Source: Thermococcus sp.
GTDB lineage: Archaea; Methanobacteriota_B; Thermococci; Thermococcales; Thermococcaceae
Length of the DNA stretch: 64,000 nt
Assembly: GCF_015521605.1 (NCBI RefSeq)
Contig: NZ_WANV01000038.1
Coordinates: 1-64,000 of the forward strand
Direction of reading: 5' to 3'
Both the position numbers and the translations under genes were made by a program. Below the pieces are notes generated by a model. The model saw nothing but the letters and a program-made list of their open reading frames with translations, searched no databases and had not been told where the DNA came from. Shown here one piece after another: positions 39,917 to 61,164 of the stretch (within the stretch, counting starts at the first letter, position 1; every line of letters starts with the position of its first letter).

Positions 39917-41010
39917 AGGTCTCCTGGGGTTTGGGACTTTTATTTACGATATCCCTTCTTGTTTTCCCTGCATATGCATACCCGTACTGGGTCAAGCCAG
40001 GAGTTTATGTTAAATACGCCGCCCTTTCATATGAACCGTATGTGCAGTATATGGAGTCGCAGGGTGTTAAGGAGCGGCCGATGACAATGATACTGTTCTA
40101 CAACCACAGTGGGGCTTTGTTCAACATCCACGCAACGGGGGACGTTTTTCTCACCTTCAAAATAGAGCGCGACAACGGAACCCATTTTGAGGTGGCCTTC
40201 CGGCTAACGGCCCACAACGTTACCGTCGATGTCGTGCTGGAGAACGGTACCGACCTGCCGACCTTCTGGAACGAGTCGGAAGTGGTTTCGTTCAGTGCCC
40301 GCGAAGCCTGGTGGCCCGGAGGGGTGGAGTACAAGATTGTCCTGAAATCGCTGGAGATTACGGGGAGTTACTATATACGAAAGCGAGACGGCGTGGTCAT
40401 CGGACGGGACGGGAGGACTTACGGGCACACGTTCCTCTGGTACGATCCCACCGAAAACCTTGAAGGTTCCCCTTACATGAATCTCACCCCGGTTGCGCCA
40501 CCCTTCTACCTCAACGGAACTATCGGGATAGACAAAGAGCTCGTGACGTACTACGGTACCTTTGGCCCACCAATCGGCAGAATTGTGCTGGTTCAGAGGA
40601 ATCCCGGCCCAATTCAGGTATGCTTTTCCGCCGGCAACCGGAGGGTGTGTCCCTTTGGAACGGGCGGCCATGAAATCGTCGGTGGATTCACGTACGACCC
40701 CGACAGCGGAATAACCCTCGCAGGCGACATGCTGGTACCCCCCACTGACATCAGGGCCACTGGCGTGGTCTACGCGCTCTTCAGCGACCTCAAGGGGTGC
40801 TACTTCAACGAGGTGAAGGAGGACTACTCTGTGTATCCTGTCCTTCAGCTCTACGACACCAACGCCGAGTTTCAGGTAGGAGAGGAGGTGCCGTTTTCAA
40901 GGCCAGGAACTAAGCTCAAATACGTTTTCTACGGCTCACTGGTACTCTTTGGACTGGCGGTCGTTTTAAACCTCTGGAGAGTGAGGAGGCATGAAGACAA
41001 ACGCACTTGA
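39913..41010 (+). CDS. Membrane-anchored surface protein, paralogue 2 of 4
   Basis: A 365-residue relative of the previous gene: 'YPYWVKPGVYVKYAALSYEPYV' after the signal peptide, 'IRKRDGVVIGRDGRTYGHTFLWYDP', 'LYDTNAEFQVGEEVPFSRP' and a C-terminal membrane helix ending 'NLWRVRRHEDKRT'. It adds three cysteines in the second half that may form a disulphide. ATG at 39913 overlaps the preceding TGA; it overlaps the third paralogue by 20 bases. Confidence 0.75.
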   Translation: MKVSWGLGLLFTISLLVFPAYAYPYWVKPGVYVKYAALSYEPYVQYMESQGVKERPMTMILFYNHSGALFNIHATGDVFLTFKIERDNGTHFEVAFRLTAHNVTVDVVLENGTDLPTFWNESEVVSFSAREAWWPGGVEYKIVLKSLEITGSYYIRKRDGVVIGRDGRTYGHTFLWYDPTENLEGSPYMNLTPVAPPFYLNGTIGIDKELVTYYGTFGPPIGRIVLVQRNPGPIQVCFSAGNRRVCPFGTGGHEIVGGFTYDPDSGITLAGDMLVPPTDIRATGVVYALFSDLKGCYFNEVKEDYSVYPVLQLYDTNAEFQVGEEVPFSRPGTKLKYVFYGSLVLFGLAVVLNLWRVRRHEDKRT

Positions 41011-42076
41011 AATGGTCATTGTCAGGTGGACGCTTCCCCTGCTCATATCCCTCCTCTTTGTGCCTTTGTTAAATGCCCTCAACTTCTATGAGACTGATTA
41101 TTTGACTTACACAGCTTTAAGATATAACCCATATGTCAATTATCGGCTTTCCCATGGGGACAAACCCGAGTGGGTAACCACATCTTTAATGTTCTACAAC
41201 TACTCTGGAGTGCTCTACCGGATAAATGCGTACAACGACACGGAGATAACCTTCAAACTTAAGGACAAAGGCGAGTACATAATCTCGCACGTTACCGTTC
41301 TTTTGAGCAACGTCACAGTCATGACGTTCCTCCCCAAGGGTGTATCTCCCCCAATTTTCTGGAACGAGTCAGAGTTGATCTCCAAGAAAACCGAAAAGAG
41401 TCACGATACGAGCTTCAAGGACTGGATGTGGTACGTGTTCAAATTGAGAAGGGTCAAAATAAGCGGGGAGTATCTCATTAGAAAGAGTGACTTGACAGTG
41501 ATAAAGGACAAATTGAGCTACGGTCACACAATGCTTTTTGACGACCCTGGAAATCCGCTCAAGGAAGGAGAAACCTTTACGATGTATCCCTTTTCCACGA
41601 CCATAGACAAAATCACGATCAACAACGAGGATCCCCTAAAATGGAGGAACATCACCTATTACCCTCCAATAAAGACCGTGGTTACCAATCACTACTCCTT
41701 TAATCTGACCCAGCCGTTTGGGAAGGGATTTCCAGTTGAGATTGTACAACTGGCCACGTTGATTTATACGTTCGATGCCTCTGATGGAAAACTTATAGCA
41801 ACACCCAATGGCGGCCCGGATCTGTGGGCGATTGGCATCCTGGATGCCCAGTTTATGGACGAATACGCCGAGTACAGAGTGGAGGTTGAACACGATAATT
41901 CATATGCCACTGGACTCGTCCTTAAATCGTTTAGAATTAATGAGAGAACGACAGAAGAGGTTATTTTTAATAAACCAAAAACCGAAGTCGCTTACCTTTT
42001 CTACGGCTCTCTCATACTCGTTGGTTTGGTGATAGTGTCCAAGTCCAGGAGGGGGACAAGCCATGACAAAGATTAG
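40991..42076 (+). CDS. Membrane-anchored surface protein, paralogue 3 of 4 (divergent)
   Basis: A 361-residue member with the same build, but the most diverged: the opening reads 'NFYETDYLTYTALRYNPYVNY' and the YDTNAEF block is replaced by 'SFRINERTTEEVIFNKP'. 'YGHTMLFDDPGNPLKEGETF' is retained and the C-terminal helix with basic end is clear. Its DNA is noticeably more AT-rich than the copies on either side, which may reflect a different origin or relaxed selection. Confidence 0.72.
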   Translation: MKTNALEMVIVRWTLPLLISLLFVPLLNALNFYETDYLTYTALRYNPYVNYRLSHGDKPEWVTTSLMFYNYSGVLYRINAYNDTEITFKLKDKGEYIISHVTVLLSNVTVMTFLPKGVSPPIFWNESELISKKTEKSHDTSFKDWMWYVFKLRRVKISGEYLIRKSDLTVIKDKLSYGHTMLFDDPGNPLKEGETFTMYPFSTTIDKITINNEDPLKWRNITYYPPIKTVVTNHYSFNLTQPFGKGFPVEIVQLATLIYTFDASDGKLIATPNGGPDLWAIGILDAQFMDEYAEYRVEVEHDNSYATGLVLKSFRINERTTEEVIFNKPKTEVAYLFYGSLILVGLVIVSKSRRGTSHDKD

Positions 42077-50617: not shown

Positions 50618-50704
50618 GCCGGGGTAGCCTAGCCTGGGAAGGCGCGGGCCTGGAGAGTCCGTGGGCGTTAGCCCGCCAGGGTTCAAATCCCTGCCCCGGC
50701 GCCA
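50618..50704 (+). tRNA. tRNA-Ser (anticodon GGA)
   Basis: The acceptor stem is GCCGGGG/CCCCGGC, the D-arm GCC/GGC and the anticodon stem CGGGC/GTCCG, with loop CTGGAGA giving anticodon GGA. A long GTGGGCGTTAGCCCGC variable arm marks it as serine. The T-loop is TTCAAAT between CAGGG and CCCTG. Discriminator G and an encoded CCA end it at 50704. The AT-rich island starts immediately after. Confidence 0.96.
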
Positions 50705-50898: not shown

Positions 50899-51354
50899 CT
50901 ACTCTCTCTTTGTGGATTTCCGTAGTCTTTTGGCGCAGTTAATGACGTCTTCTATCTTATTAATGTCTCCCATGTTTGCGTATCCAAAAATAATTAGATC
51001 CTTGTTTAATTTTCCTGCAGCTAGTTGAATGAGTGTTTTGTAACTTTTTCTGGCTCCCCCGGCATAATATATCACAACATCATACTGTTTGAGAGCCTCC
51101 AAAACTTGGGGAAGAAGTTCTTGCACCTTATCTTCATTCAAAATTTCATTGTATGGTTCAATAATGGTCTCTGCATGAATGAGGCCATACTTAGCGCTAA
51201 GAACATAGAACGAATACCCTAGCTCTTGAGATTTTCTGTAAAGATATCGTATCCGAGAAGATTTATACACTTTCCATGCGGGTCCTGGTTCAGTGCTTTT
51301 TTTGTTTCCACAAGCAGTTATCACTATTATCCTATTACTTCTGTGAGCATTCAC
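50899..51354 (-). CDS. YaaA/DUF6884-like protein of the 7-deazaguanine system
   Basis: A 151-residue protein. 'IIVITACGNKKS' at the start, 'PAWKVYKSSRIRYLYRKS', 'SFYVLSAKYGLI' and 'PYNEIL' are the DUF6884/YaaA-like signature, with an invariant Cys and Lys-Lys near the front. Some bacterial Dpd systems have, as I recall, a YaaA-type protein (DpdC) that converts inserted dPreQ0 to the amide form; this one is a candidate for such a step. The start is GTG at 51354 behind GGGGGT. It is the last gene of the operon and follows the transglycosylase by 15 bases. Confidence 0.8.
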   Translation of the reverse strand: MNAHRSNRIIVITACGNKKSTEPGPAWKVYKSSRIRYLYRKSQELGYSFYVLSAKYGLIHAETIIEPYNEILNEDKVQELLPQVLEALKQYDVVIYYAGGARKSYKTLIQLAAGKLNKDLIIFGYANMGDINKIEDVINCAKRLRKSTKRE

Positions 51355-51369
51355 AAAAATACCCCCATT

Positions 51370-52422
51370 TTAGTAGTTTAGATAATGGATAATTTCAAGC
51401 TGGGATCTTTGTTTTAAAATGTATTCGAAAATCTTTTTGTATACTTTATGTCCCTTGATTATGCTTCTAACGTATTCCTCGTAAGTACCTTCTTTTATAT
51501 GAGCACGTATTTTGTATATTTCTTTCTGGTAAACCCACGCATTATGAATTGCTCTCAATGTGAATTTTGTTCTTAGACCCTCCAATCCATGCTCTCTGCA
51601 GGCCGGACACTGGCATCTCTTTACAATATCGACTTCGTTAGGAGACAAGTCAGGGTACTTCTCACTTGTTTTTCCGGTTATGTATCTATCTCCTATCCCA
51701 GGTAGTTGAATTGCACCAAATGCTGCTTTGGATCTCCAAGAGGAACTGTCAATTGAATCGGCCCCTGACAAGAACATAATGTGCATTGTTAAAGAGCTCC
51801 CGACACCAAATACATGAAGCTTTCTGTCAGGAATTAATTTTTTGATGAACATTATTACATCTATGGCCTTATACAATCCACCCTTGCCCCCTTTAATTCC
51901 CTTCGCTAAAGGCACTAAGCTTCCGATACCATAGATATCAAACTCACCGATTTTCTCCAATTCTCGTATATACCATTCCAGGGATTCCTTGTTGTATCCA
52001 TGGATTACAGGTATTAATACAGGGTTATCTCCCCTTTTGATTTCAACCATTGTTTTTAGATTCTCTAGACTATTACGTTGTCTTTTTCTAATGATATTCT
52101 CAGGAAGAGATGGAAAAATCGGATGATCAAGAGAAACTGCAAAGTTTGGTTTCCATTCTTCATAAACTTCAACTAACTTCTCAGGGGATATTGGAACCTC
52201 ATTGTGTTTCATGAATAGAAATCCACCAGAATCTATAGCCACAACTCCATCGAACTTTAAATAATTATGAACTTTTTGTTTTTTGATCCTTTCTGAGATC
52301 ATAGGTTTTTTCAAGATGTCATATGCATTTAGCATAACTCCCTCGATGTCGAAATATTTCCATGGCTTTGGACTAGCCTTTGCTTGTTGAGTTAACCATA
52401 AAAATGGAAACTCAAGTTTCAT
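51370..52422 (-). CDS. DpdA-like transglycosylase (TGT superfamily)
   Basis: A 350-residue TIM-barrel TGT. The two catalytic aspartates are conserved: D64 in 'AIDSGGF' and D225 in 'GADSIDSSSW'. The zinc site is C270, C272, C275 and H293 ('CQCPACREHG', 'AIHNAW'). 'HVFGVGS' is the strand-7 motif. It has no PUA domain and differs from archaeal tRNA-TGT, which carries long C-terminal domains. The SIDSSSW version and the neighbourhood point to the DpdA branch that swaps guanine in DNA for preQ0. The ATG follows GGTGAT and overlaps the ArcS-like gene by 11 bases. Confidence 0.85.
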   Translation of the reverse strand: MKLEFPFLWLTQQAKASPKPWKYFDIEGVMLNAYDILKKPMISERIKKQKVHNYLKFDGVVAIDSGGFLFMKHNEVPISPEKLVEVYEEWKPNFAVSLDHPIFPSLPENIIRKRQRNSLENLKTMVEIKRGDNPVLIPVIHGYNKESLEWYIRELEKIGEFDIYGIGSLVPLAKGIKGGKGGLYKAIDVIMFIKKLIPDRKLHVFGVGSSLTMHIMFLSGADSIDSSSWRSKAAFGAIQLPGIGDRYITGKTSEKYPDLSPNEVDIVKRCQCPACREHGLEGLRTKFTLRAIHNAWVYQKEIYKIRAHIKEGTYEEYVRSIIKGHKVYKKIFEYILKQRSQLEIIHYLNY

Positions 52423-53206
52423 TTGAAATCACCTTCGTTATGGCTTTAATTAGATAGTGCTTGAGGTATTCTTGAGCATCTGGGTGTGCTATACCATACA
52501 TATCCCATGCGAATCTACCATGCTTACTAACGATGCTCTCAATCATCTGCTTGGTGGGTAGTATTTCGACATCAACTCCTGACGTCTTAACTGCAAGCTC
52601 CATCATTCTCCTGTGAGTGTGATACGGCTTTTGTTTTAATGTGGATGAATATGTCCTAATAAATGCAATTCTAAAAACATAGTGGTTCTTTGTCCTTTTA
52701 AGATATTTTGCAATGCTTGAACTTATCATCTCGATACTTCTATCAACACATTCTCTTTCATAAGGAAGCTTGTATTTTCTAACCCACCATTCAAATAATC
52801 CTGGAACATCATACCATTCGTCCTTCCAATTAAACCATGTTCCTTTCTTTCCATAAAATTCTTCAGGAACTAGCCCAAATGGCTCAGATATTGTTACTAA
52901 GTGAATATATTTACTATACTTTCCTAAACTATTTAATGTCTTGAAGAGAACTCTATATGACCGAGACTCCCAAAAGGGTTTTACAGTTGAACATGGGTAC
53001 AATAGCAAAATCTTTTTTTCAGATGGGGGCAAGTATTCTGTAGATATGAATTGAAACCAATTTTGAATCCTGGAATTGTTTTGAATCAGCTCACAGACTT
53101 CCTTGGGAGTGTATGCACACAATTCAGGCAATATTTTCACATTTTTTGCATGTCGTAGTGACACATTTTGATAAAGCCATGCTCTTATTTTATCGTCCGT
53201 CTTCAT
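52412..53206 (-). CDS. ArcS-like (DUF5591) protein
   Basis: A 264-residue protein with the ArcS/TgtA2 core: 'LLLYPCSTVKPFWESRSYR' (PCSxxKP at residues 71-77), 'HLVTISEPFGLVPEEF' and 'WYDVPGLFEW'. Archaeosine synthase ArcS converts preQ0 in tRNA to a lysine adduct on the way to archaeosine; full-length ArcS also has zinc and PUA domains for tRNA, which are missing here. Lacking them, it could act on another nucleic acid. It shares an operon with the DpdA-like protein. The ATG follows GGGGGA. Confidence 0.78.
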   Translation of the reverse strand: MKTDDKIRAWLYQNVSLRHAKNVKILPELCAYTPKEVCELIQNNSRIQNWFQFISTEYLPPSEKKILLLYPCSTVKPFWESRSYRVLFKTLNSLGKYSKYIHLVTISEPFGLVPEEFYGKKGTWFNWKDEWYDVPGLFEWWVRKYKLPYERECVDRSIEMISSSIAKYLKRTKNHYVFRIAFIRTYSSTLKQKPYHTHRRMMELAVKTSGVDVEILPTKQMIESIVSKHGRFAWDMYGIAHPDAQEYLKHYLIKAITKVISNET

Positions 53207-53230
53207 GAAGATTCCCCCTCACTCTTGCGC

Positions 53231-54334
53231 TTATCTTATCCAAAGGTTAAATATCGGGGATGTTGCTGATTCTTTGGTTATAATCTCCTCATATAATACT
53301 TGTGCACATCCTTCTCGTATAGTACATTTCTCATGGGCTAACAATGCAGGAATTGGCAATCCATGCCCCGGGATTGTCCAGTAGTTCAAAACTTCGATAA
53401 CATCGTTGAGTTCCTCTTGGGTTAATTGGCTCTTCGTGGCGATCTCTATCCGTAGAATTGGAGATCTGGCGTTTCTCTGATAGAACAAATAGTATATCTT
53501 AATACCCTTTTCTGAGTATTTAAGCTCAATTTCATTTTGGGGGATTTCTTCAGTTAACATTGTCGATAGTGGTCCTACATAATTTGGATTTAATTTGAAT
53601 CTGTAGAATTTAAACATTGTAGCGATTAAATACAAATCATTATGGAATTTATTTAACATGCTATTTAACTCTGGAAATTCTTGGGAAATATGTTCAATAA
53701 GCTTCCGGTCTCGTATTCTTTTTACACATCCCAGAACCCGATTTCCATTTTTCAAGACTTCATAAATAGCGCTGGTTCGATAGCTGGTATATTCCCTAGG
53801 ATCTACATAGGGATTATCAACCATAAATGGGGGATCAATTATCGGCCCATCAAGAAAAATATTGGAATCTGATATTTTCTCATCGGCAATTGTCCTGATT
53901 TCACTGCTTTCTAGATATAACATTAAATAAGAGGCATATTTCTTTGCTTGGGATTCATCTATAGCTTCAATCTTCCTTATCGTTGCGAAGTACTTTGAAT
54001 CGACATCTCTATCAAGCCCATTTTTGAAAACAATCCTCACTGAAGATAGAGGGACATACCAAATACCACCCATCCCTCCAATTACTTGAAAACTTCCATC
54101 AATGCCAATAGCTGTGTGAGAAAAAGATGAGGCATTTGTGTTTTTTACAATGAAATATGACGGCAAAGTATCTAAGATTGACTTAACTGCATTGTCCAAG
54201 ATCCTAAATAGTTGTTTAGTTTCATTACTAAGTTTGTGGGCATCATGAACTAACTTATTTAGTATTTCTCCCTCAGTCATATTGAACTCTAGACGCTTTT
54301 TCTCTTCTATGATTTCCTTATATAGTTGCTTCAT
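53231..54334 (-). CDS. nurA: NurA-family nuclease
   Basis: A 367-residue NurA-domain protein: 'HTAIGIDGSFQVIGGMGGIWYVPLSSVRI' with D79, 'IFLDGPIIDPP' with D162, and 'PALLAHEKCTIREG' near the end, the three NurA metal-site blocks. NurA with HerA resects DNA ends; here it lies two genes after HerA, separated by the large ATPase. It is likely a dedicated copy rather than the recombination NurA of the core genome. The start at 54334 suits AGAGGTG better than the ATG two codons earlier, which is too close to it. Confidence 0.85.
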   Translation of the reverse strand: MKQLYKEIIEEKKRLEFNMTEGEILNKLVHDAHKLSNETKQLFRILDNAVKSILDTLPSYFIVKNTNASSFSHTAIGIDGSFQVIGGMGGIWYVPLSSVRIVFKNGLDRDVDSKYFATIRKIEAIDESQAKKYASYLMLYLESSEIRTIADEKISDSNIFLDGPIIDPPFMVDNPYVDPREYTSYRTSAIYEVLKNGNRVLGCVKRIRDRKLIEHISQEFPELNSMLNKFHNDLYLIATMFKFYRFKLNPNYVGPLSTMLTEEIPQNEIELKYSEKGIKIYYLFYQRNARSPILRIEIATKSQLTQEELNDVIEVLNYWTIPGHGLPIPALLAHEKCTIREGCAQVLYEEIITKESATSPIFNLWIR

Positions 54335-54357
54335 AACCATTTCACCTCTAAGGCATG

Positions 54358-57300
54358 CTAGATATACAAAATAATGATATCTCTCTCAACTAATCGGAAA
54401 AAGGTATCTTTGACATCTTTGCCCAGACGTTCAGAAGCTATCTCAATGAATTGTTTCAAGGTTAGTTTCTTGACACTACTCTTAATTTTGAGATACTCAA
54501 AGAATACTTCCTGTTCCTCTACTGTGAGATAACAATTTACCAGTTCTTGGAGCGTTTTCGTATAAGTTTCGAGATTCTCCAAGTATTTTTCAACTTTAGA
54601 ATACTCCCCATTACTGAGTGCTTGATCGATGAGTCTTGAGATACTGCTTAGTTCTTTGCTTATGTTCTTATATTCTTCTCTTATTCTCCATTTAGTACAG
54701 GCTCCTCCAGAGCTTCTAAGTGGATTGAGATCTATTAGCTTCTCCAATGCAATAACTAGATTTTTAGAAGTATTCATCTTGGGGTCTATTAATTTCTTAT
54801 GAATTCTTGAATTTATTTTGTCGATAAGCTCTCCGAGCTTCTGTTTTATCTCATAGTATTTGCTTTCATTTGAATCTATCTCTCTTTGGTATTCGTTTAG
54901 AAGGTCTTTAATAGTTTTTAGTCTCTTGTATGGATCTGTTATTGTACTCAGTTGCTCCTTTAACTCCGGGAGAACGACACTAGCGTTTAGCCCATTTTCT
55001 ATATCGTCTACGTCTTTTGACAACTGATTTAATGACTCAATTTCAGTATTTAGAACTTCTTTTATTGTCCTTGTAGATTCAAGATTTGAGAGTACGTATT
55101 CAATTTCTTTCTTCATCATGGATTTAGTGGAAAATATTCTCTGTTTTGATTCATTGATCTTGTTTATACTTTCCTCAAGTTGCTCCATTAAAGCTAAGAA
55201 CTTATCTATCCTAATTCGTTCTTTCCAGTGTTTAACGAGCTCTCGTATTTCCTTAAGGGAGGTATACTTATCTGAATACGCCCTAACTTTGAGGGATTTT
55301 ATGTCAGGAATATAGACAGATAGATCTGCTAACTCTGCTATTTTTTTGAGTTTATCCCTGATTTCTTGGGACTTTCTGTTTAATTCCATTGATTGATCTA
55401 TTGTATCATCAATCTCCTGTATTAATGCGAGTATTCCTTCGTTAATACTTGGTCGAATTATTTTGTTCTTCCTATCTACTTGCCTTAAAATCTCTTTTAG
55501 TTCCTCAGATGTGAGAGGGGGATGCCTTTTCAGTAAGAACGTTCCTATCTGTTCATACATCTTGTAAATCTTGTAATTGAACTTTAGTTCATCTGCTATG
55601 TCTTTATTATAATAAAATGGGAATCTTCTATGCTTATCTTGTTTTGAGGGCACTAAAGAGGCCCATAGATGAGTTAACACTTGCTCATATTCTGCTAGAT
55701 CATATTCTTCTTGGTAGATGTCCTTTAGGGTATTATGTAATTGTTCTATTGTTGAAATTTCCTTGAGTTCCACGGATATAGGGTTTGTGAGAACTGTAGA
55801 GTTCAATCTCTCTTCTAGGAGTTTTTGAGATTCAGATGCTGATTCCAGGATTTCCCCGTATCCTGTTAAGATACTCCTCATGAAGTTGTCACTTTCATGT
55901 ATTAATGCCCTATACCTTCGTTGCCCTTTCTTGGACTTGGCGTCACCATCGTATAACAACAATAAATCATAAGACAATCGTGTGAAAACCATGGCTTTGC
56001 TTAAGGACTCAATTGATGTACTGGAATTTAAGTATTCTTCGGCTTTTTCAAGGAACCTTTCTATCACCTGCAGATATGTAGGGACATGTTTGATCCGTAT
56101 ACCCCTCTCTTTACTATCGCAGAAATATCCTGTGGTCTTTATTAAACCCAAATCTGAATTTTTGATATCATTGAGTTTTTCAGTTATTTGTTTGTACGTC
56201 TCTGTAACAAGTTCTTTGTTAACTTGTGATATCCTTACGTAACTCCCTTCTTGGTGGACTATGATTAACCCTTTTTCTTCCATGATCTCCAAGAGAAAGT
56301 TTAATGTTCCTTTTTGTTCTTCGATGAAGTAATTCTCTATTAGTGCTTTTGAGACCCCTGTACTAGATGATTCATATCTTTGGATAAATTTGAGAATTTT
56401 ATCTTCCAGTTCAGTAATGGGGACTATTTTGTAGTTTATCCCTCCTCCTCTGGGAATTTTGATCAAGTATCCGTTACGATATAAGAGTTCTGCTCTTTTT
56501 TCTAATTCCCTCTCACTTTCAATATCTTCTCCTAATAGCCCTCCTTTTTGGGAAAAGAAATACCATCTTCTAATTGAACTATCCGAATACAAGAGCACTT
56601 TCTCTAACGAAACTCCTTTCTCATGTGCATCTGGAACAACCAAAAAATGTTTTAATCCCGCTTTTAAGCTCTTTTCGGGTAATGACTTATCATGCCTTCC
56701 GATTGCACGGGTTATAGGTGGAATGAGGATGTGGAATCTTTCAAGGATTTCAATTATCCTATCCGGCTTCAATCTTAAGCTTGCTCTGAGTGTGTCATTA
56801 ATTGCTAGTAGTTTTTGTATATTTAAAACTTCTTTCTCTTCCTGCGGAAGGGAACCTTCCATTATCTCTAACATCTTTTTGTAAACGTCATGAGGCGTTT
56901 CCGCTCCGAATTCTTGTAAGAGCAAACCTAGACTAATAAGCTGGAGCTTGGAGATCTGGGTAGCAGCATTTATAAAGAGTGGTGCTGAGAGAAACTCTTC
57001 AGGAAGTTCTGTAACTCTTTTTCTGGCACGTTCAAGCATATCTCCTTGGTATACGAATATTACAACTTGTGGGATTATCCCTTTTTCTTGGTTTAATTGC
57101 CGTAGCAGTTTATATGTTTGTTCTACTTGCTCCTCGGTTAGATTTGCAGTAGTAATTGAAAAGACAATATTTACTGGGATTGCGCCTGATTTGTTTTTAT
57201 ATGGAACTTTTGATTTCAATGCTACTATATATGCTCCATTTTGAGTTGCTGAGCGAGTTGACAATACCTTTTCGACTACTAGTCCTGACTGAACAAGAAT

Positions 57301-59109
57301 TGCAAGAATGCCATTGAACATGTGTTTGGGTTCCGTACTTTGAAGAGCATATTTCCAAATCTTAAATCTCAAGTTCCTGTCAGAGATAAAGTCGATATAC
57401 ATGAGCTCTGGAGAGAAGTATAGCGAATTAATGAGCGCTGGGGAAACTAGATAATATCCTTTCACCTCCTTAAGTTTACCACTTTCAGTAAGTTCTGTGA
57501 GAGTCTCATCAATTGACCTATATACCTCTTCTAGGTCTGTTTCATCCTTTTTCAACATCTCTGCTAAATACTGGGTGTGACTATGGGACCAATCAGGATC
57601 TACTTGGGGCCAAAAGAGAGATAGTTTTCCATGTTCATCAATCCACAAAAAACTGTCAATGAATTGCCTAATAAGAACATCTTTTCCGACTAGGCTATCT
57701 TTTGTGGAATCTAACATATCACTTTCTTCTAAGACTTTGTACAACGTACTGGCTAGTCTTGTGAAGAAAGACTCTTGATCTAGAATTTCATATTTCCTAC
57801 CTTTGTATACGAAGCTGTTAGTCCCAATCGATGCTCCTAGGGGTTTGCTACGTCTGAATATTTTATTTAATCTTTCTAAGTAATATTTTACCTTGAAGGA
57901 CTCTAATCCATATTTGCGAAGGTACCTTTCCGTGTTTTCTAGGGGAACTGCTCCAAATGTGGATATAATGAATTCAAACACTTTCCTTATTTCCGCTGGA
58001 TTTTCTTGGTCCTCCTGAAGTTTATCAATTTCCGCATATATTGTTGTTAGCATTTCACTATTTATGAGAGTAGCTTCTACTCCAGCAACTACAATAGAAC
58101 TTTCTTTGAGGAAGTTCATCATTTCAGTGTATTCTATTGGGGATCCACCCTTTGAAAGCTCTCTACGTAATAATGCAGTCATCGCTTGCTGAAGAGCTCG
58201 TGTATTCCCTATGGTGCTGTGAACCACTGGATTGAGCACGCTTGGAGGTAAGAATATAGTGTCTATATTTATATTTTGATTATTCCACATGTATTTGAGT
58301 AACTCGTTGGCAAATTTTAGTCTCTCTTCTTTGGAGAGAGGGTATAGGTGGATGCGCTTTACTCTTTGCATGAATCTCCCTTCGATATCTCCAGCTAAGG
58401 CACGAACTCTTGCAAAGGCTGGAGGAGTTATAGAAAATATAAAATGTAACACACTAGTTTTATTCTCAAAAAGAGAATTTATTTTTCCATTGATTATCTT
58501 AGTCAGACCTTCAATTATAAACTCTTTTAATATTTCATCTTCAGCAACCAACGCAAATGTCTCAAATTCATCAATAAATATAACCAATGGATATATCATG
58601 TTCTTTTTGATTGCTGATCTTTTTATTAGGGTGAGACATTTGTTAACATAGTCTCTCAAGGACTGATAACTCCTTTCTCCTGGAAATGGTTCGCCAAGTA
58701 GTTCTTTAAGCTCATTATAATGATCGTGACGAAGAGCTAGGAATAATGCTGCTAGTAACCTATACCCTGGATCAATATTCTCTGAAGGAAATAGTTCCTT
58801 TTTAAATATCATCTTTGCGTATTTGACCAAAATATCTGTTTGAACATCAAGAACGTAAAACCCTCCAATTTCCTCTTGAACCTCCTTTGATCTTAAGTAT
58901 CGGTCATACAAGGTCGTCTTACCCTCCCCCCACTCTCCTATCAGAAACAGGACCAATGGTTGGTTTTCTTGTTTTTTGGCAGTAAGTAATAGGGTCTTAA
59001 TTTCCTCGGAGACTTTAATTCTGCTGGGGATCTTTCCAAATTCTATACCTTTTCCTGTTTCACTGGGTAATCTCACATAGGGAGGGACTCTAATCTGGGA
59101 AGTTTCCAT
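54358..59109 (-). CDS. Giant AAA+/STAND-type ATPase with coiled-coil tail
   Basis: A 1583-residue protein. Walker A 'GEWGEGKTT' is at 58-66, Walker B 'LVIFIDEFET' at 175-184, then a sensor-like 'HFIFSITPPAF' and 'DIEGRFMQRVKRI' with candidate arginine finger. Winged-helix-like stretches follow and the C-terminal third is long coiled coil ('NESKQRIFSTKSMMKKEIEYVLSN...'). The fold suggests Orc/BrxC-like P-loop ATPases used in defence systems. It sits between HerA and NurA and overlaps the HerA stop by one base (TAATG). ATG follows GGAGGTG. No close family is recognised. Confidence 0.75.
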   Translation of the reverse strand: METSQIRVPPYVRLPSETGKGIEFGKIPSRIKVSEEIKTLLLTAKKQENQPLVLFLIGEWGEGKTTLYDRYLRSKEVQEEIGGFYVLDVQTDILVKYAKMIFKKELFPSENIDPGYRLLAALFLALRHDHYNELKELLGEPFPGERSYQSLRDYVNKCLTLIKRSAIKKNMIYPLVIFIDEFETFALVAEDEILKEFIIEGLTKIINGKINSLFENKTSVLHFIFSITPPAFARVRALAGDIEGRFMQRVKRIHLYPLSKEERLKFANELLKYMWNNQNINIDTIFLPPSVLNPVVHSTIGNTRALQQAMTALLRRELSKGGSPIEYTEMMNFLKESSIVVAGVEATLINSEMLTTIYAEIDKLQEDQENPAEIRKVFEFIISTFGAVPLENTERYLRKYGLESFKVKYYLERLNKIFRRSKPLGASIGTNSFVYKGRKYEILDQESFFTRLASTLYKVLEESDMLDSTKDSLVGKDVLIRQFIDSFLWIDEHGKLSLFWPQVDPDWSHSHTQYLAEMLKKDETDLEEVYRSIDETLTELTESGKLKEVKGYYLVSPALINSLYFSPELMYIDFISDRNLRFKIWKYALQSTEPKHMFNGILAILVQSGLVVEKVLSTRSATQNGAYIVALKSKVPYKNKSGAIPVNIVFSITTANLTEEQVEQTYKLLRQLNQEKGIIPQVVIFVYQGDMLERARKRVTELPEEFLSAPLFINAATQISKLQLISLGLLLQEFGAETPHDVYKKMLEIMEGSLPQEEKEVLNIQKLLAINDTLRASLRLKPDRIIEILERFHILIPPITRAIGRHDKSLPEKSLKAGLKHFLVVPDAHEKGVSLEKVLLYSDSSIRRWYFFSQKGGLLGEDIESERELEKRAELLYRNGYLIKIPRGGGINYKIVPITELEDKILKFIQRYESSSTGVSKALIENYFIEEQKGTLNFLLEIMEEKGLIIVHQEGSYVRISQVNKELVTETYKQITEKLNDIKNSDLGLIKTTGYFCDSKERGIRIKHVPTYLQVIERFLEKAEEYLNSSTSIESLSKAMVFTRLSYDLLLLYDGDAKSKKGQRRYRALIHESDNFMRSILTGYGEILESASESQKLLEERLNSTVLTNPISVELKEISTIEQLHNTLKDIYQEEYDLAEYEQVLTHLWASLVPSKQDKHRRFPFYYNKDIADELKFNYKIYKMYEQIGTFLLKRHPPLTSEELKEILRQVDRKNKIIRPSINEGILALIQEIDDTIDQSMELNRKSQEIRDKLKKIAELADLSVYIPDIKSLKVRAYSDKYTSLKEIRELVKHWKERIRIDKFLALMEQLEESINKINESKQRIFSTKSMMKKEIEYVLSNLESTRTIKEVLNTEIESLNQLSKDVDDIENGLNASVVLPELKEQLSTITDPYKRLKTIKDLLNEYQREIDSNESKYYEIKQKLGELIDKINSRIHKKLIDPKMNTSKNLVIALEKLIDLNPLRSSGGACTKWRIREEYKNISKELSSISRLIDQALSNGEYSKVEKYLENLETYTKTLQELVNCYLTVEEQEVFFEYLKIKSSVKKLTLKQFIEIASERLGKDVKDTFFRLVERDIIILYI

Positions 59110-60794
59110 TAGTTTTCACCTCCGTGGTATAAACTGTGTAGTCTTTTCATGACATTAGTCTCTCCCATCTTGTGTTCTATACTTCTCTTTCCAACTTCCA
59201 CTAGAACAGGATATCCAAGCGGATTCATTTGGCCGACTACAATCGCTTTTCCTCTTTCGAGAGTGGTGAGTTTTGACTCGATACTTTTGGGAAGTCCTCC
59301 GCTGATTTTTCTGATATAATTCGCATCATCGGGAGAGACCCTATGGATAATATATGTATTTAGCATGGATACTACGACTGGATCAACAAATGCTGGTCTT
59401 TGAGAGACAAGGCCTAGGCATATCCCGAACTTTCTACCCTGCGTTGCTATAAGAGATAAATAGTCTTTTGTCAGTGTGGCATGGACAGGATAATTGCTTG
59501 TATTTGGAATATAGTTTTGACATTCCTCAATTATGAACAGTAGATACCTATCATCGCCCTTTATTTTGTAGTCGGTAAATGTTTTATACAAGATTCTAGA
59601 AAGATACGCAATAACTAACTGTTTTTCGAGCGCAGAGACTCCTGGAGCACCCTCTGCTGAAAAATCAAATATGACTAATGAGGGATTACGGGTTATATCG
59701 TCAATAAATGTTGCATCTATCGAGGGATTTTTGACGATTAGGTTATGATTGTCAATAATATCACTTTTGAACTTTGTCAGAGCAGAAATAATGGCTTTTT
59801 TTGTTGCAAAGTGTATTGGAGAATCTTTTTCTGAAGACAACTTTTCTAGTGTTGCTTTTATTTCGTCAAAGTGGTTTAAGAATAACTCAGTATAGCTAAT
59901 ATATTCGAGTTCTTTAAGTGCCATCTCCAACCCTGCTACCTGTAGCTCATTTAGTTCTTTTCCGGCCGTTTTATATGCCACGACAAACTCGGCTAATTCT
60001 CGTGGACTGAAAATATCTAGATCAATTGTGATCTCTTTAAAAGGCCATTTTCGAACCCGATAGGGAGCGTTTTTGAATATCATGCGATACACTTTATAAA
60101 AGCTGCCTAACTGTTGTTCTGAACTGAAATATTCATGATAATCAAGATAGTCTCCATTTGCGTCTATTATTATCGTAGGTAGTGCCAAGTATTCTATATT
60201 ATTCCCTGTATTGTAAGGAATTTTTGAGAGGAGTTCTAGTAAGTATCCGACACCGTATGACTTGCCAGACCCCGTAACTCCAAATATGCCAAGATGCATG
60301 GTTATATTTTCGACATTTAATGGAAGCGCTAAATTTTTATACCCGAGAATACTCCCATACCAGATATATCCGCTCTGATTTGGTTTTATGCCAAAGATCT
60401 TTTCCCCATATCCCTCTAGATCGCTTATCATAAACACATAATCCCCAGGCTCGGGGGGATACCTTACATCAGACAGTCCATTTTTACCAAGAGTCCCAAG
60501 TAAGGAGACCTCCGCCACAACGTATCTTCTGCCCAAGTCTGCAATACCTTCCAAAGACCGCCCTTCCCTCCGGGCTTGACTCCACGGATCTCCCACTTGA
60601 TAGAATTCATTTATTGGTTTAAGTGAATCAACTCGACCTAGGAACTCTATGTTCCGGTTTTTAGAGGTTATTAGTACCAACATTCCCTCAAATACAACTC
60701 GTTCTCCTATGCTTGTTAATTGTATCTTTGCAACAGACGTTGTGGATCCACTAAGAACGAATCCAATATGGTCTTTTGTGATGTTATCCCCCAT
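59109..60794 (-). CDS. herA: HerA-family hexameric helicase
   Basis: A 561-residue HerA: N-terminal HAS-barrel ('FLGRVDSLKP', 'AEVSLLG', 'PPEPGDYVFM'), Walker A 'GVTGSGKS' (172-179), Walker B 'LLFIIEECQNYI', and the end with 'RPAFVDPVVVSMLNTYIIHRVSPDDANYIRKISGGLP' carrying the arginine finger region. HerA pumps DNA for NurA. The predicted transcription start coincides with the ATG at 60794; an in-frame start at 60884 lies upstream of the TATA box and was rejected. First gene of the island operon. Confidence 0.9.
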   Translation of the reverse strand: MGDNITKDHIGFVLSGSTTSVAKIQLTSIGERVVFEGMLVLITSKNRNIEFLGRVDSLKPINEFYQVGDPWSQARREGRSLEGIADLGRRYVVAEVSLLGTLGKNGLSDVRYPPEPGDYVFMISDLEGYGEKIFGIKPNQSGYIWYGSILGYKNLALPLNVENITMHLGIFGVTGSGKSYGVGYLLELLSKIPYNTGNNIEYLALPTIIIDANGDYLDYHEYFSSEQQLGSFYKVYRMIFKNAPYRVRKWPFKEITIDLDIFSPRELAEFVVAYKTAGKELNELQVAGLEMALKELEYISYTELFLNHFDEIKATLEKLSSEKDSPIHFATKKAIISALTKFKSDIIDNHNLIVKNPSIDATFIDDITRNPSLVIFDFSAEGAPGVSALEKQLVIAYLSRILYKTFTDYKIKGDDRYLLFIIEECQNYIPNTSNYPVHATLTKDYLSLIATQGRKFGICLGLVSQRPAFVDPVVVSMLNTYIIHRVSPDDANYIRKISGGLPKSIESKLTTLERGKAIVVGQMNPLGYPVLVEVGKRSIEHKMGETNVMKRLHSLYHGGEN

Positions 60795-60820
60795 GGGAAG
60801 TACCCCTAAAGGTATATAAT
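60794..60820 (-). promoter_or_regulatory. Leaderless promoter of the HerA-to-DUF6884 operon
   Basis: On the minus strand a strong TATA box (ATTATATA) reads from 60820 to 60813. Its centre is about 23 bases before the herA ATG, so transcription should start at the start codon. AGGGGT is also present but would lie inside the spacer. All six genes are likely driven from here. Confidence 0.65.
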
Positions 60821-60884
60821 TTTGGATATTAAAAATCTGTTGGTAAGTTTTCTTGGACAAAATTTGATGTCCTAGAAAAAGCAT

Positions 60885-61164
60885 TATTATTCTAATGACT
60901 CTTGTGTTAGTGACTTTTTGATATCAAAATACCTATCTAAAGAGTAGATGTGCTTCCTTTTTATCTCATCTGTTACTATATTTCCTGGCTATTTTGATAA
61001 TTCTACATTAATAAGCTCATAAACAAGAAACGGGGCGGCTGGAGAGTCGTGGACATCCGTCAATTTCCGAAGGGGTTTGCCGTTTAATTAGCGGTCTTGC
61101 AGAGTTTCATTCTCACAGAAAAGTTTGAACTCAATGAATGGCATTGTCAAAGAAACAAGAAATC
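60885..61164. other. Intergenic island edge
   Basis: Between herA and the MoaD-like gene no coding sequence is supported. The first ~130 bases are AT-rich; composition then rises from about 61030, where the tRNA-like fragment lies. The remaining bases to 61164 show nothing distinctive. Confidence 0.5.
61029..61060 (+). repeat. Degenerate copy of the tRNA-Ser anticodon arm (possible att remnant)
   Basis: CTGGAGAGTC at 61039-61048 is identical to the tRNA-Ser anticodon loop region at 50650-50659, and the flanks (CGGGGCGG before, GTGG after) also resemble the tRNA. CGGC/GTCG can still form a short stem round TGGAGA. It lies in direct orientation 10.4 kb from the tRNA. It may be a worn attachment site; chance cannot be excluded. 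Confidence 0.35.

Follow-up and report, generated by a model that had tools for sequence, protein, structure and literature searches.

Introduction

Three described systems come closest to the locus analyzed here. Dpd (genes dpdA-K) is a bacterial restriction-modification system of the dPreQ0/dADG type. BRC (BREX-Related Capture) is built on PglZ, DUF6079, a STAND NTPase and DUF4007; its components include HerA, a BrxC-like ATPase and PglZ, with a TGT in a subset of systems (PMC12839542). BRIGADE is a haloarchaeal Dpd/ARMADA hybrid (PMC12458937).

The protein families of the locus are also known from other settings. HerA and NurA act with Mre11-Rad50 in end resection. The canonical HerA-NurA of T. 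kodakarensis cuts both strands of dsDNA, and an antiviral role was proposed by the authors of that study (PMC12977600). ArcS belongs, together with TgtA, to the archaeosine pathway of tRNA; the T. kodakarensis enzyme adds lysine onto the preQ0 nucleoside and does not require tRNA structure (PMC11298593).

Results

The six-gene island

The window, i.e., the whole 64-kb stretch of DNA that was analyzed, comes from a member of Thermococcales as judged by gene content and genome kinship. The ORF list showed six minus-strand ORFs at positions 50899-60794, in the order and on the strand given in an earlier, preliminary description of this DNA. The intergenic gaps of -1, 17, 24, -11 and 15 nt agree with its view of one coupled operon, and the DNA is AT-rich as it had stated: the GC content of the island is 0.37 within a high-GC genome, and its GC3 is 0.34-0.35 compared to 0.82-0.84 in the flanking EF-2 and oxidoreductase genes. 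A second local GC dip (0.44) was seen outside the island, at 41001-42000 of the window.

Pfam searches returned the protein identities that had been proposed for the six genes. In the direction of transcription, the operon encodes a HerA-type translocase that belongs to a separate 'system' subfamily (59109..60794, minus strand; 561 aa from the 60794 start; DUF87, 2.2e-25), a 1583-aa AAA+ ATPase whose long C-terminal part is probably helical (54358..59109, minus strand; AAA_22, 3e-5, a match below the Pfam cut-off; AAA_16, 6e-4) and a NurA-type nuclease (53231..54340, minus strand; PF09376, 4e-11). These are followed by a stand-alone DUF5591 (ArcS core) protein of 264 aa (52412..53206, minus strand; PF17884, 1e-11), a short TGT of 350 aa with the catalytic domain only (51370..52422, minus strand; PF01702, 1e-29) and a DUF6884 protein (50899..51354, minus strand; PF21818, 6e-13; PADLOC PDC-M57A, 1e-12).

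The longest HerA ORF begins at 60884. The start at 60794, chosen in the preliminary description, matches the start of the relative in another Thermococcaceae genome (G075). Upstream of it, a putative operon promoter (60795..60840, minus strand) can be read from the sequence, whose TATA-like element TTATATA lies some 18-24 nt before the HerA ATG. A leaderless promoter, as proposed earlier, is plausible with this element ending 18 nt before the start; AGGGG, a candidate Shine-Dalgarno sequence, is also present there.

The left edge of the island adjoins a tRNA-Ser(GGA) gene (50618..50704, plus strand; ARAGORN), a possible insertion site. No integrase was present among the island ORFs. A search for att direct repeats at the island edges gave a sole match of 10 nt at 61039, about chance level, and we discarded it.

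The short TGT

The window TGT aligns to residues 43-352 of the 582-aa ArcTGT 1iq8, and the C-terminal ArcTGT/PUA parts are absent. Its motifs IDSGGF and GADSIDSSSW hold, by homology, the catalytic aspartates and are kept in most relatives. The scores were 118 bits for TIGR00432 (TgtA; cut-off 350) and 59 bits for the NCBIfam DpdA model (cut-off 200).

The comparison with tRNA enzymes and DpdA that the preliminary description had called for was made in a tree of 49 TGT sequences, including host, viral and plasmid proteins, E. coli Tgt, and the DpdA proteins of cyanobacteria and of phage 9g. The TgtA sequences formed a single clade (97/91), with which E. coli Tgt branched (97/99). On the opposite side, the system TGTs grouped with those of STSV1, SIRV2, Ignisphaera-type and Thermoproteales-type genomes and a cyanobacterial plasmid (90/90). 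The DpdA proteins of cyanobacteria and phage 9g, both long branches, fell outside this group, and the earlier label 'DpdA-like' was not supported by the comparison with the bacterial DpdA tested. A search for phage DpdA with the cyanobacterial query matched one record.

We found full-length TgtA (about 500-580 aa) besides the short TGT in nearly all system genomes checked. In the window genome it is split across two contig ends; a contig end truncates it in the Desulfurococcales metagenome-assembled genome (MAG), and no copy was found in the Sulfolobus MAG (L026). Since the hosts carry full-length TgtA as well and the tree separates the two, the short TGT is, judged by sequence, distinct from TgtA and not the tRNA enzyme. 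A reading of the island as part of the tRNA archaeosine pathway was rejected on these grounds and with a 571-aa ArcS present besides.

DUF5591, DUF6884 and the supply of preQ0

In an alignment of 14 DUF5591 members, the P, C, K and P of the PCx3KP motif and a SEP triplet were invariant. The window motif, PCSTVKPFWESRSY, fits the ArcS motif, which we take to be of the PCx3KPYx2Sx2H type, with F and Y in two places; the exact form is present in the DUF5591 proteins of STSV1 and Sulfolobales. Against the model of full-length ArcS, which has TGT-like and PUA parts, the 264-aa protein scored 48.6 bits (cut-off 600).

The window protein gave a confident AlphaFold2 model (pLDDT 89.4), which had a single PDB match below 1e-3, AF0587 (2q07), and a single match below 1e-3 among viral structures, the DUF5591 protein of Vibrio phage nt-1 (8.6e-6). 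The DNA of this phage was found by Hutinet et al. to contain dPreQ0, dADG and dG+ (PMC6884629). With this structural match, the deazaguanines of nt-1 and the tRNA-independent action of ArcS, DNA is a plausible substrate of DUF5591.

Besides the canonical 571-aa ArcS, the window genome encodes QueC and, therefore, has a preQ0 supply. The Sulfolobales QueC protein has 466-484 aa, a size that would fit the known Gat-QueC route.

The match of the DUF6884 protein to PADLOC DpdC was weak (1.5e-6 over 63 residues). Its gene is kept beside those of TGT and DUF5591 in the two other Thermococcaceae islands described below. Within the operon, DUF6884 was found only in Thermococcales; elsewhere it was seen in haloarchaeal plasmids and, as a weak match, on a cyanobacterial plasmid. 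Thus, the six-gene system of the preliminary description exists as such in Thermococcaceae, but the widespread core has five genes.

A Rhizobium plasmid ORF (L009, 14932-15948) was similar to the DUF5591 protein (6e-8); it lies in a catabolic neighborhood, near an 8-oxoguanine deaminase gene.

HerA, NurA and the large ATPase

With a HerA profile built from the systems, the window HerA had an E-value of 9e-247 compared to 1e-19 for the canonical HerA of the same host. All system HerAs were at 1e-60 or below (most from 1e-128 to 1e-249), while the canonical HerAs were at 1e-27 or weaker. We therefore rejected the reading of the pair as the ordinary end-resection HerA-NurA. The features of a HerA-NurA pair are present, namely the HerA ATPase core and the NurA catalytic aspartates, D81 and D164 (DGP), which were invariant in 8/8 system NurAs compared.

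The N-terminal AAA+ domain of the 1583-aa protein has the Walker A motif GEWGEGKT and the Walker B motif VIFIDEFE. In profile-profile comparison, the window-type ATPase matched the type found in Desulfurococcales and in G021, a genome of the window's genus, over 810 columns with 99.6% probability; the Sulfolobales type had detectably little in common with them beyond the AAA+ region. The structure predicted for the Sulfolobales ATPase had a pLDDT of 55.7; DnaA/Hda/IstB-type AAA+ proteins were its top probable matches, and no PDB match was found at 1e-3. Since this pLDDT is low and the matches are too weak, we did not accept an initiator-type fold as evidence.

System-type HerA-NurA pairs with no large ATPase nearby were seen in G268 and G276 (L164 and L165). 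These may represent one of the extra HerA-NurA pairs noted in Pyrobaculum (PMC3396285).

Related islands in Thermococcaceae

Among 94 Thermococcaceae genomes, one other genome (G075) had a full-length relative of the ATPase; a match in G078 (L012) proved spurious. In G075, all six genes are present in an unchanged order, with identities to the window proteins of 73% for HerA, 69% for TGT, 64% for DUF5591, 62% for DUF6884, 51% for NurA and 36% for the ATPase. A third island, found via its TGT in G021, has the order NurA-HerA-ATPase-DUF5591-TGT-DUF6884. This island has low GC in a high-GC host and a genomic place different from that of the window island; in all three Thermococcaceae, the low-GC islands occupy different sites. 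With the same order in G075 and all six genes reordered in G021, the set is more than a chance assembly.

Restriction-modification systems commonly swap their attack module while the marking module stays constant. Between the window and G021, the marking trio is conserved (TGT 68%, DUF5591 64% and DUF6884 53% identity) and the attack genes are far less so (HerA 41%, NurA 24% and ATPase 17%). The G021 HerA is nearer to a Desulfurococcales HerA (46%) than to the window HerA (41%). The attack module thus appears to have been exchanged behind a constant marking module.

Distribution in other orders

A TGT scan of about 85,000 species genomes gave two complete relatives. A Desulfurococcales MAG (L018) has TGT, DUF5591, NurA, HerA and a 1478-aa ATPase; the Sulfolobus MAG (L026) has TGT, DUF5591, HerA, a 1015-aa ATPase, a 235-aa coiled protein and NurA. 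The five-gene core was found in G094 and in Sulfolobales, and 4/5 of its genes precede a contig end in G175 (L141: TGT, a 255-aa protein, DUF5591, HerA and an ATPase akin to that of the window, 2.5e-40). The differences in gene order argue against the linkage being simply one arrangement passed on by descent. No partner genes were nearby at most other TGT loci of the first scan (Ignisphaera-type, Methanomicrobia, Thermoprotei).

The Sulfolobales-type ATPase was present in 18/229 Thermoproteia genomes, and all 18 were among the 19 genomes with the strongest TGT matches; the nineteenth was the Desulfurococcales genome with its own type of ATPase. In nine of the 18, the genes all cluster together, in most cases at a conserved location on the chromosome. 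Seven others have a HerA-ATPase-coil-NurA operon elsewhere, with TGT and DUF5591 in their own place.

The neighborhood search and co-occurrence scoring suggested in the preliminary description showed that the set recurs in several orders. System HerA and short TGT occurred together in 36 genomes, i.e., in 36 of the 43 with system HerA; 26 genomes had TGT only and seven had HerA only (Fisher p=1.9e-18, uncorrected for kinship). The seven were counted as genomes with no TGT match at 1e-20, some of the assemblies being fragmented. G295 retains an intact DUF5591 gene and only a C-terminal remnant of TGT, and it has neither the ATPase nor system HerA; such coupled loss fits host protection.

Several Ignisphaera-type genomes have no system HerA. 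For example, G219, one large contig, carries TGT and DUF5591 at separate places, so that the marking half can live alone. The preliminary description had named, as a result that would speak against it, grouping of the TGT and ArcS-like proteins with tRNA enzymes and their occurrence apart from HerA, NurA and the ATPase. Such occurrence is in part what we see in genomes like G219, which have no system HerA, while in the tree the TGT lies apart from the tRNA enzymes.

The G219 TGT gene adjoins an apparent anaerobic ribonucleotide reductase gene, an arrangement of the short TGT seen in Ignisphaera-type genomes (L086, 9314-10288; L019-L023). The 255-aa protein between TGT and DUF5591 in L141 (4735-5502) had sub-threshold Hus1/Rad9/PCNA matches, and in phage 9g the TGT (DpdA) gene adjoins a replicative clamp gene (L173, 2006-3960); a clamp beside a TGT would point to DNA as the substrate. 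Another arrangement, in G316 (L087, 1745-6066), has TGT, HerA-like, NurA-like, PAPS-reductase-like and DUF5591-like genes. On an Aulosira laxa plasmid (L149, 1523-12999), DUF6884, a HerA-like DUF87 protein, SbcD, SbcC and a short TGT are encoded in one run, which is a bacterial parallel with SbcCD replacing NurA. Plasmids of Halorientalis (L150) and Haloferax (L151) encode a 967-aa TGT-DUF6884 protein, a 344-aa TGT, a 298-aa unknown protein and a BrxC/D-type ATPase, with preQ0 synthesis genes beside the TGT genes (queC, folE, queE and queD in L150).

Viral copies

The short TGT was present in 35 Sulfolobales virus records, covering S. islandicus rudiviruses, Stygiolobus viruses and STSV1, 2 and 4. 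In the STSVs, DUF5591 adjoins TGT, and the two are 53-55% identical to the Sulfolobus pair. The STSV1 TGT is nested among host copies in the tree (97/86 with G287). No HerA or NurA accompanied the viral TGT within the viral stretches read; the marking half alone is what an escaping virus would need. The modification published for STSV1 DNA is, as cited in PMC11208441, on cytosine; this neither supports nor excludes a deazaguanine.

Discussion

Given the gene content and co-occurrence, the module swap, the split from the tRNA enzymes, the catalytic motifs and the marking genes of viruses, we consider it likely that the locus is a two-module system of self-marking and DNA destruction, a Dpd-like restriction-modification with a new effector. 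The preliminary description had assigned three genes to marking DNA and three to attacking unmarked DNA; this division agrees with the swap in G021, with the unlinked halves in Sulfolobales and with the place of the TGT apart from tRNA enzymes. That DNA is the substrate, which base is made, how sensing works and that the purpose is defense are our inferences, and the scheme would run as follows. The preQ0 would come from the host archaeosine (tRNA) pathway, and the short TGT would swap guanine in the cell's DNA for it; the stand-alone ArcS core, joined by DUF6884 in Thermococcales, would turn preQ0 into a further 7-deazaguanine. The AAA+ ATPase might sense DNA that has no mark, or be kept off by the mark, and would load the HerA hexamer with NurA on unmarked DNA. 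HerA-NurA would then translocate, pull the DNA in and degrade both strands, a step proposed because the canonical T. kodakarensis pair cuts both.

For a wider reading, we see roughly even chances. Here, a 7-deazaguanine would be the self-mark of Sulfolobales chromosomal DNA, and a second HerA-NurA machine, equipped with an AAA+ ATPase of its own, would enforce it; rudiviruses and STSV-type viruses would have the marking enzyme(s) so as to be taken for self, and the Thermococcales islands would be mobile versions.

Several observations count against the two-module reading. TGT and DUF5591 occur in Ignisphaera-type genomes that have no system HerA, seven system-HerA genomes gave no TGT match at 1e-20, and in many Sulfolobales the set has a single conserved chromosomal location, which is not typical of a mobile defense island. 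The ATPase families are also barely alike across orders. That conserved site, shared by many Sulfolobales, would suit a role in genome maintenance, where the mark would let the second HerA-NurA-ATPase tell chromosomal from broken or extrachromosomal DNA in Sulfolobales repair or segregation, the Thermococcales islands being transferred copies. The initiator-type AAA+ fold suggested, with low confidence, for the ATPase points the same way. Still, we find this explanation unlikely in view of the low-GC islands at different sites in three Thermococcaceae, the TGT in many Sulfolobales viruses, and an effector half that evolves far faster than the marking half, as in arms races.

Somewhat less probable again is that TGT and DUF5591 modify RNA (tRNA or other), with HerA-NurA-ATPase as an unrelated or RNA-guarding defense module. 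Both enzymes derive from tRNA enzymes, and Ignisphaera-type genomes keep them without HerA. However, the island TGT has no C-terminal ArcTGT/PUA parts, the genomes tested encode TgtA as well (and, in Thermococcales, ArcS), HerA and NurA act on dsDNA, the TGT strongly co-occurs with the ATPase and system HerA, and the DUF5591 structure matches a protein of a deazaguanine-modified phage. It would take a reversed, type IV-like logic for the attack module to destroy DNA bearing a viral deazaguanine, with TGT and DUF5591 serving another end. The many Sulfolobales viruses with a TGT could make modified viral DNA worth recognizing, but TGT and DUF5591 would also mark the DNA of the host, and the coupled loss in G295 fits host protection, which makes this very improbable.

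Should the self-marking and destruction system be real, it would place a 7-deazaguanine in the chromosomal DNA of one of the best-studied archaeal orders, for which we found no report. It would also give the extra HerA-NurA sets a function, and the so far unexplained 'queuine tRNA-ribosyltransferase' genes in rudiviruses could be read as counter-defense.

Comparison with known systems

With the archaeosine tRNA pathway (TgtA, ArcS) the island shares homologous domains and motifs and a common preQ0 supply, but its enzymes have no C-terminal/PUA domains and come in addition to a tRNA pathway that is itself complete in that genome. With end resection it shares the HerA and NurA families and likely the same chemistry; the island HerA, however, is a distinct subfamily, separated by more than 100 orders of magnitude when E-values for the system profile are compared, and its partner is an AAA+ ATPase and not Mre11-Rad50.

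An open-access text search gave no description of a TGT with NurA, in line with the earlier statement that this combination was not known as a described restriction-modification system. Like Dpd, the island has a TGT-family protein with a preQ0-derived mark as proposed. The Thermococcales DUF6884 protein, with its weak similarity to DpdC, may be a further link. On the other hand, its effector is HerA-NurA-ATPase, its second enzyme is the ArcS core, and its TGT is outside the DpdA clade tested; domain searches of the six proteins showed no DpdB, no YprA-type helicase and no PLD nuclease. BRC has a HerA/FtsK translocase, an ORC/Cdc6-type ATPase and, in a subset, a TGT, and the island has HerA and TGT. 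NurA and DUF5591 are, however, unmentioned for BRC (PMC12839542), and we rejected BRC membership since PglZ, DUF6079 and DUF4007 had no Pfam match in the six proteins. BRIGADE is likewise archaeal with deazaguanine genes, and a Haladaptatus plasmid resembling it has TGT-DUF5591 fusions and a DUF6884 gene; its two YprA helicases and PLD or PD-(D/E)xK nuclease (PMC12458937), not found among the six proteins, stand in place of HerA-NurA-ATPase. Because each of the three fails at a defining feature, we place the island outside Dpd, BRC and BRIGADE, as a further variant of restriction-modification based on deazaguanine. Next to these three, a HerA-NurA effector linked to base exchange would represent another architecture.
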